NCBI GenBank assembly: GCA_022821445.1
Contig: JAJEDQ010000056.1
Location: forward strand, 1 to 37,349
Length of the DNA stretch: 37,349 nucleotides
Direction: 5' to 3'
Source: Acidimicrobiia bacterium
Lineage (GTDB): Bacteria; Actinomycetota; Acidimicrobiia; Acidimicrobiales; Bin134
The position numbers were made by a program, and so were the translations under genes. Positions 35,210 through 37,286 of the stretch are shown one piece after another; the first letter of the stretch is position 1; each line of letters begins with the position of its first letter. The notes below the pieces were generated by a model, which worked only from the letters and a program-made list of their open reading frames with translations, did not search any database and was not told where the DNA came from.

Positions 35210-35785
35210 ATGGGAACACTTGCCGTCACCGGTGATCACGACGCCGACCAACTCCTAATCGATAACCCATTCGCCCTGCTGCTGGCCATGATGCTCGACC
35301 AGCAGATCCCCATGGAATGGGCCTTCAAGTCGCCCCTGCGGCTGAAAGAGCGCATCCCCGAGAACTTCTCCGCCGCGGGTCTGGCTGAGATGGACCCCGA
35401 GAAGGCCGAGGCTGCCTTCAAGGAGAAGCCCGCCCTGCACCGCTTCCCCGGATCAATGGCCCGCCGAGCCCAAGACCTGGCCCGCCACATCGTGGACCAC
35501 TACGACGGCAACGCCGCCAAGCTGTGGGCCGAAGCCCCCACCGGCCAAGACCTGCTCAAGCGGCTCAAAGCCCTCCCCGGCTACGGCGACGAAAAAGCCA
35601 AGATCTTCCTCGCCCTGCTGGCCAAGCGCTTCAACATCACCCCCGAAGGCTGGGAAACCGCCGCTGGCCCATTCTCCGACGCCACCCCCCGCACCGTCGC
35701 CGACATAGACAGCCCCGAAGCCTTAGCCGAGGTCAGGGCTTGGAAGAAAGCCCAAAAAGCCAAAGGCAAATCCAAACAGGACTGA
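35210..35785 (+). CDS. HhH-GPD-family protein (uncharacterised actinobacterial type)
   Basis: NPFALLLAMMLDQQIPMEWAF, FPGSMARRAQDLARHIV, LKALPGYGDEKAKIFLALLAKRF (helix-hairpin-helix). Confidence 0.87.
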   Translation: MGTLAVTGDHDADQLLIDNPFALLLAMMLDQQIPMEWAFKSPLRLKERIPENFSAAGLAEMDPEKAEAAFKEKPALHRFPGSMARRAQDLARHIVDHYDGNAAKLWAEAPTGQDLLKRLKALPGYGDEKAKIFLALLAKRFNITPEGWETAAGPFSDATPRTVADIDSPEALAEVRAWKKAQKAKGKSKQD

Positions 35786-35819: not shown

Positions 35820-37286
35820 ATGACCAACCCAGCCGACATCCCAACCCCGCTTCCGTGGGAACAGCGCTCCAAAGGGGTTGGCTCCATGCCCGGGGGGTAC
35901 ACAGGCTACATCCATGCCCTTCGTGAAATCTGCGAGCATGTCATCAGCGAAGGACCTTCTCGAACAGATTTAGTTGGCTGGATCCAAAGCCATTTCAATC
36001 TAAGTGGAGGCAGCGCCATCTGGCGCGAGCGCTTCTTGCACAAAGCTGGTGTTCTCGAATCCTCTGCCAACCAGATCAAACTCAGTGAGCACGCAAGCCG
36101 CTGGTATCTGGCTTCGGACGACGGAATTCTGATCGGGCTCCTGCACAGCCGACTTCAGTTTCTTGGCGAAATGCTCTCAGAGCTGCGTGAAGGACCTCGA
36201 ACGCTTGAAGAGTTGCGTCAGGCAGCAAAGAAGTACGACCTAAATTGGGATACGGACAATCAGGGGCACATAAGGCGGGGCTGGTTGGAGTCCGCCAAGC
36301 TGGTTGAGGCCGTCGGAGACAATCGATTGGCCATCACAGACGTGGGACGCGACCTGCTGTCCAAGCTGACCGTCCATGCTCCCGGTTCGGATCCAGAACC
36401 CCTTCATGCAGAAACGCCTCCTGATCCAACGCCGGACAGCGTCCCCACTTCCGCACCAGAGACCATACCCTCCGCCACCATCGATGCACCAGACGACTCC
36501 ATAGCAGATCGCAACCTCTCCCCCGCTGAAGCTCTCGCACTCGAAATCCGCGAAGCGGCCACCGACAGCAAGAATCCTGACCGTTTGGAGGTCGCCGTCC
36601 GGGATGCGTTTCACTTTCTCGGGTTCAACGCCAAGAAACTTGGCGGCAGCGGCAAGACTGACGTGCTGGCCACAGCACCGTTGGGCAAGAACGACTCCTT
36701 CACAGTGGCCATAGACGCCAAAACAGTCGGCTCTGGCTCCCTGGGTGATCACCAGGTGGACTGGGTCACCCTCGAAGAACATCGCAGACAGCACAATGCC
36801 GACTATTCAATGCTGGTGGGACCGAACCCCTCTGGCCAACGCCTGATGAGCCGGGCTGTCGACAAGACGGTGTCAGTGCTCTCAACCGAACAACTTGCTG
36901 ACCTGTGCATCCAGCACGCCGAAACGCCACTGGGCCTCGAGGACTACCGTGCGCTCTTCGAGGCTGGCGGTGCTGTTGACACGACCCCGACCAGCAGGGC
37001 GGCCGAGGACTTGGGCCGGCTTCGGGGTCTCGCTATCGAGCTCTGTGAGAAATTGGCTGAGAGGACCGGCACTTTTGGGCCACTTACTGCATCACAACTC
37101 ATGGTGATGATCGATCAGCCCGACAAGCCCAGTTCCGAGCAGGAAATCCAACAGACACTGGACACTCTTACCAGCCCATTGGTGGGTGCAGTCCAGGGCA
37201 CGGCTTCAACTGGATATGTCCTTGCCACTGCCCCACGAGTCATTCAACAACGCCTCCAACAGCTTGGCGATCAGATCGCGCGTTGA
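35820..37286 (+). CDS. Restriction-endonuclease-like protein with FokI-like PD-(D/E)XK nuclease domain and flanking wHTH-like regions
   Basis: KLGGSGKTDVLATAPLGKNDSFTVAIDAKT matches the FokI pattern LGGSxKPD...VIVDTKA; preceded by two wHTH-like segments and followed by a ~105-aa extension. Confidence 0.75.
   Translation: MTNPADIPTPLPWEQRSKGVGSMPGGYTGYIHALREICEHVISEGPSRTDLVGWIQSHFNLSGGSAIWRERFLHKAGVLESSANQIKLSEHASRWYLASDDGILIGLLHSRLQFLGEMLSELREGPRTLEELRQAAKKYDLNWDTDNQGHIRRGWLESAKLVEAVGDNRLAITDVGRDLLSKLTVHAPGSDPEPLHAETPPDPTPDSVPTSAPETIPSATIDAPDDSIADRNLSPAEALALEIREAATDSKNPDRLEVAVRDAFHFLGFNAKKLGGSGKTDVLATAPLGKNDSFTVAIDAKTVGSGSLGDHQVDWVTLEEHRRQHNADYSMLVGPNPSGQRLMSRAVDKTVSVLSTEQLADLCIQHAETPLGLEDYRALFEAGGAVDTTPTSRAAEDLGRLRGLAIELCEKLAERTGTFGPLTASQLMVMIDQPDKPSSEQEIQQTLDTLTSPLVGAVQGTASTGYVLATAPRVIQQRLQQLGDQIAR

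Follow-up and report, generated by a model that had tools for sequence, protein, structure and literature searches.

A predicted FokI/HindIII/Mrr-type nuclease with a strain-variable winged helix in a chromosomal slot of Acidimicrobiia

The nuclease gene and its domains

The window, a stretch of 37,349 bp, is one complete contig (G000:C214) of an Acidimicrobiia assembly that is 92.7% complete. Near its end lies an ORF of 488 aa, which an earlier sequence-only reading had described as a stand-alone FokI-like nuclease with two N-terminal winged-helix segments, a Pro/Thr linker and about 105 residues behind the nuclease. The ORF is real, occupies exactly the coordinates given by that reading, and its sequence facts are correct, including the codon positions of the D/D/K triad; the residues following the nuclease number about 102. 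Only 63 bp separate the end of the ORF from the end of the window, and because the window is a whole contig, the downstream side of the gene is missing from the assembly. The features at this locus are as follows.

35210..35785, +, TIGR03252 HhH-GPD gene, left border of the variable slot; a chromosomal neighbour, not a partner
35820..37286, +, nuclease gene (P0001), a-type, ATG start, 488 aa
35820..35897, +, leader, residues 1-26, conserved (MTNPADIPxPLPWxxR...PGG)
35898..36122, +, first winged helix, residues 27-101, hypervariable and apparently exchanged between strains; model pLDDT roughly 70-90
36123..36389, +, second winged helix, residues 102-190, from strain comparison and the model
36390..36524, +, Pro/Thr-rich linker, residues 191-235, lowest conservation
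36525..36977, +, PD-(D/E)XK nuclease domain of FokI/HindIII/Mrr type, residues 236-386, from Foldseek, profile and alignment
36660..36662, +, predicted catalytic D281, invariant
36714..36716, +, predicted catalytic D299, invariant in close and diverse homologues, nearly so with the GHKL-fused relatives
36720..36722, +, predicted catalytic K301, invariant
36978..37283, +, C-terminal domain, residues 387-488, conserved alongside the nuclease; putative fold

On its own, the window protein has no Pfam (Mrr_cat and FokI_cleav_dom included), NCBIfam or PADLOC match and no significant PDB match, and phmmer with this single sequence yielded nothing useful. A profile of the nuclease family matches HindIII (E 3.5e-4) and FokI (E 9.8e-4) in the PDB, and Foldseek with the AlphaFold model of the full protein (mean pLDDT 56, built on an alignment of seven sequences) places FokI first (2fok, E 1.7e-5, probability 1.00, 443 columns), followed by HindIII and then the nickase N.BspD6I. 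With a second model covering residues 232-488 (mean pLDDT 61), HindIII ranks first (E 8.8e-5); both models are of low confidence, and the alignments behind them are shallow because distant sequences were left out. The predicted alpha-beta order of the nuclease model fits a PD-(D/E)XK core and bears the D...(D/E)xK motif that characterizes this superfamily. D281, D299 and K301 are invariant in seven close homologues and 12 more diverse ones, and in an alignment of 13 nuclease domains, GHKL-fused relatives among them, D281 and K301 are again invariant and D299 nearly so. In addition, the coding frame of the nuclease is under purifying selection (median pN/pS 0.22). The protein is thus predicted with high confidence to be a nuclease, and the FokI-like PD-(D/E)XK assignment of the sequence-only reading holds at the level of the fold.

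Seven relatives (L081, L083, L100-L102, L104 and L105) exceed the Mrr_cat cut-off, and relatives stay below that of FokI_cleav_dom (15.1 of 25), which the window family never reaches. Together with the FokI and HindIII matches, these scores place the domain in a FokI/HindIII/Mrr type and not in the FokI family proper. The active site of the Mrr catalytic domain has been described as D...QxK (PD-QXK, PMC11037411), whereas that of the window family is D...DxK. FokI itself consists of N-terminal winged-helix recognition domains followed by a cleavage domain. The window protein shares this arrangement along the 443 columns aligned, so that the "non-FokI architecture" claimed earlier was overstated.

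The C-terminal domain, by contrast, is a real difference from FokI: it accompanies the nuclease throughout the wider family and forms a shared core with it. Its pLDDT lies below or around 50 in both models. A third winged helix, as suggested by the sequence-only reading, was considered for this region, but the profile comparison with the N-terminal winged-helix pair (1.2% probability), the PDB search and the second fold leave it unproven.

Homologues and the absence of a linked methyltransferase

Full-length homologues number six (61-74% identical), all in MAG records and five of them from Acidimicrobiia. Within the same genus, 13 of 22 genomes match at least part of the window protein, and nine intact syntenic homologues, the window included, occur in this single actinobacterial genus. 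Wider relatives are found in other families of the class and of the phylum, across Actinomycetota, and plasmids of Staphylococcus saprophyticus, S. hominis, Priestia and Gordonia carry relatives that are 22-28% identical to the window protein along 93% or more of its length. Acidimicrobiia genes that lacked annotation are thereby linked to "restriction endonucleases" of staphylococcal plasmids, themselves poorly described. One plasmid relative lies in a defence context, adjoining an ABC-three component system and an AbiH-family gene. No homologue was found in phage records or IMG/VR contigs.

Several arrangements precede the shared core, among them one winged-helix pair (window, L078, L079, L082), an EVE domain plus a winged-helix pair (L080, L081, L106, L107, L108), and, as read from the sequences, two winged-helix pairs (the Staphylococcus, Priestia and Gordonia plasmids and L109). 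The EVE domains of L080 and L081 are detected by Pfam (E 3.4e-7 and 1.4e-10) and those of L106-L108 by BLAST; the PGG motif of the leader is common to a-type, b-type and EVE forms and is partly present in Mrr forms. EVE, a reader of modified bases, is absent from the window protein. In a tree of the nuclease and C-terminal domain, in which several deep branches are long, the window clade arises from within the EVE forms, which are thus paraphyletic to it (moderate supports of 87/88 and 91/91), suggesting that EVE was probably lost in the window lineage; two gains of EVE would cost as many changes as this loss, and 10% of bootstrap trees unite the EVE forms. Type IV restriction activity has been predicted for EVE-PD-(D/E)XK proteins (PMC7641849), which the window family resembles in having a PD-(D/E)XK nuclease without a methyltransferase and homologues that carry EVE. 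The window protein differs from them in lacking EVE and presumably reads DNA by its winged helices only.

Other architectures were encountered as well. In a haloarchaeal relative on Haloferax gibbonsii plasmid pHG3 (L105:4467-5816), an unassigned and perhaps PUA-like N-terminal domain precedes the same core. HARE-HTH + Mrr_cat proteins (L030:8367-9665; L085:8671-10035) possess a C-terminal winged-helix pair homologous to that of the window protein, a likeness to Mrr-type enzymes beyond the catalytic domain, and L085 matches the PADLOC candidate PDC-S02. Furthermore, some actinobacterial GHKL (HATPase_c_3) ATPases of about 820-850 aa carry a related nuclease near the C-terminus (L086:921-3461, - strand; L087:1366-3852, - strand; L088:7801-10266; L110:6166-8619); these proteins recall prokaryotic MORC-like systems (PMC2292703) and show only weak similarity to the PADLOC REase_II and MzaB models.

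Methyltransferases were searched for with PF01555 and PF00145 in 23 genomes and with PF02384 in 18, and no METHYLTRANSFERASE was found close to the gene: 0 of 17 genomes that carry the nuclease and were read for linkage have a PF01555, PF00145 or PF02384 methyltransferase less than 20 kb from it. Several of the contigs concerned are 100-136 kb long, whereas others are short and break off soon after or before the gene. The shortest distances are about 23 kb in G010, to a partial PF02384 match, and about 214 kb in G218, to a PF01555 match. The sole exception is L081 (G348), which lies among the HsdM and HsdR genes of a type I restriction locus, and the plasmid homologues of Staphylococcus, Priestia and Gordonia have no annotated methyltransferase within 6 kb. 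The gene is therefore stand-alone, as the sequence-only reading had supposed for the window. The cognate methyltransferase expected beside a FokI-family enzyme is absent, and the lack of a linked methyltransferase conforms to what defines type IV enzymes. The proposal of a type IIS enzyme whose partner lies outside the window finds no support in relatives, where contigs extending far beyond the gene contain no methyltransferase.

A different version of the type II reading would have the protein as an ordinary, IIS-like restriction enzyme protected by a methyltransferase elsewhere in the genome. FokI is the best fold match, and the host is rich in methyltransferases (13 PF01555, 4 PF00145 and 5 PF02384 matches elsewhere in G000), so that protection in trans is possible. 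Against this stand the EVE domains of the sister lineages and the unlinked state of the gene in nearly every relative checked, including the distant plasmid ones.

The stand-alone pattern of winged-helix-nuclease fusions, 87% of which have no methyltransferase neighbour, has been read as modification dependence, and this has been confirmed for several enzymes (PMC11037411). Such fusions include the N6-methyladenine-dependent type IV endonucleases DpnI, FcyTI, Psp4BI, HhiV4I and others (PMC11037411). The window family resembles these enzymes in its winged helix joined to a nuclease and in its stand-alone genes. However, no similarity to the winged helix of DpnI is detectable, the family carries two winged helices N-terminal to the nuclease, and its nuclease is of FokI/Mrr type and not of DpnI type; a winged-helix profile of 19 N-terminal modules found neither DpnI nor any other 6mA reader in the PDB at E<=10. 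The winged-helix domains of FokI illustrate that such domains need not read modifications.

A variable slot with exchanged winged helices

In the same genus, the slot that holds the gene has the TIGR03252 HhH-GPD gene on one side and an alpha/beta-hydrolase gene on the other. It is empty in five genomes (G003, G004, G014, G020 and G021), where the border genes are 25-26 bp apart; G001, which ends at a contig end, and four genomes whose slot is not resolvable were left out of this count. Nine genomes hold an a-type gene, accompanied by a b-type gene in L004 and L007, whereas L027 and L028 hold the b-type alone and L026 a broken a-type. The a-type gene of L026 (9384-10453) is split into two ORFs with its middle gone, reflecting either a decayed copy or an assembly fault. 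DUF222-HNH, HAD and DUF3800 genes are additional optional occupants, one DUF3800 gene (L007:4726-5409) sitting between the a-type and b-type genes.

The HhH-GPD gene lies 34 bp upstream of the nuclease gene on the same strand, a spacing kept in almost all carrying strains, and a DNA-repair nuclease working with this glycosylase was considered. This partnership was rejected because 21 of 22 genomes have the glycosylase gene, among them all five in which the slot is empty. Relatives outside the genus have other neighbours, and the quick mosaic evolution described below is unlike a housekeeping role; a repair function is accordingly very improbable.

Both N-terminal winged helices named by the sequence-only reading are well formed in secondary structure in the AlphaFold model, the second with a pLDDT of 52-79. 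The first shows only 28-69% identity between strains, lower values than those of the nuclease (68-89%) and the adjacent HhH gene (87-98%); the exception is the pair of window and L004, whose first winged helices are 96% identical. At the DNA level, the window and L003 share 92-98% identity over most of the HhH gene and 93-100% across most of the nuclease and C-terminal domain, but 46-58% in the first winged helix. Between the window and L004 the pattern is different: the HhH gene is 82-90% identical, the first winged helix 92-96% and the C-terminal domain 49-71%. For the first winged helix, the window pairs with L004 in the tree (unstarred support 77/76) and a grouping with L003 is rejected (p-AU 0.0004), while the tree of the nuclease and C-terminal domain groups it with L003 (98/98) and rejects L004 (p-AU 0.0002); these p-values are indicative only, since the pairs were picked after the identities had been seen. 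The same mosaic appears at synonymous sites, indicating recombination and not merely fast protein change. Differences inside the first winged helix are scattered over all its elements, without enrichment in the recognition helix, and thus look like replacement of the whole domain. These comparisons argue that strains have exchanged the first winged helix among themselves.

Sequence-specific restriction systems typically exchange recognition domains, and in a type II enzyme the swap would mean a changing sequence specificity. However, a new reader with no matching methyltransferase linked to it should be harmful to the host, and an ordinary type II enzyme protected in trans, although the main rival, is on balance a rather unlikely explanation.

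The b-type genes (L004:11943-13010; L007:5821-6885; L027:9062-10585, - strand; L028:9290-10354, - strand) encode the same N-terminal winged-helix module joined to another kind of C-terminal domain, which bears the pattern D...ExK...QLRLGLGQVLSY. This domain has no Pfam match and is predicted to be an unrelated PD-(D/E)XK nuclease. It adjoins two PF01555 methyltransferases in G000:C20, with identical gene order in G096:C38, and these neighbours support its reading as a restriction nuclease.

A possible modification-dependent restriction enzyme

The preferred reading, to which a probability of about 0.6 is assigned, is that the window protein is a single-protein, stand-alone, modification-dependent (type IV-like) restriction enzyme. 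The N-terminal winged helices would bind the target DNA, and the PD-(D/E)XK domain would cut near the target with a metal held by D281, D299 and K301. Cleavage would probably take place outside the read site and in a dimer, with the C-terminal domain probably aiding DNA binding or dimerisation. Given the missing methyltransferase and the EVE domains of the nearest sister lineages, the enzyme most likely attacks DNA bearing a modification that the host lacks, possibly that of phages or plasmids, and swapping the first winged helix between strains would alter the site or modification attacked. Since a modification-dependent enzyme needs no matching methyltransferase, it can exchange its reader freely, and the unlinked gene, the EVE-bearing relatives and this free exchange are together best accommodated by modification dependence, with the same confidence as the reading as a whole. 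The modification-dependent option listed by the sequence-only reading is thus favoured by the relatives, although the EVE domain that favours it there is not in the window protein itself.

A role in restriction or defence in the broad sense is likely, in keeping with the restriction and defence genes around L081 and one plasmid relative. The variable slot, the defence-like turnover and the missing methyltransferase would also suit an abortive-infection effector whose winged helices are triggered by a phage signal other than DNA modification; the EVE and HARE-HTH fusions of relatives suggest direct reading of DNA, no partner gene is constant, and such an effector is improbable. The label "new defence effector" given by the sequence-only reading was too strong, as EVE-PD-(D/E)XK and winged-helix-nuclease type IV enzymes have been described (PMC7641849, PMC11037411). 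Of most interest are the swapping of readers and the joining of two nucleases to one reader module. A fuller version of the preferred reading, in which a modification-dependent enzyme has lost EVE and changes specificity by swapping a winged-helix cassette at a fixed chromosomal slot, with its module also joined to a second nuclease, is put forward tentatively. If true, the slot would represent a natural experiment in which one winged-helix cassette varies before a nearly constant nuclease, the swapped cassettes would be candidate readers of modified bases, and it could be tested whether one winged helix sets the specificity of a methyltransferase-free enzyme.

In addition, a conserved three-gene locus (L120:2660-7176 in G000:C20; L122:640-5438 in G096:C38) comprises two genes for PF01555-type methyltransferases of about 590 aa followed by a gene for a 329-aa protein ending in the b-type domain, and looks like an undescribed restriction-modification system.
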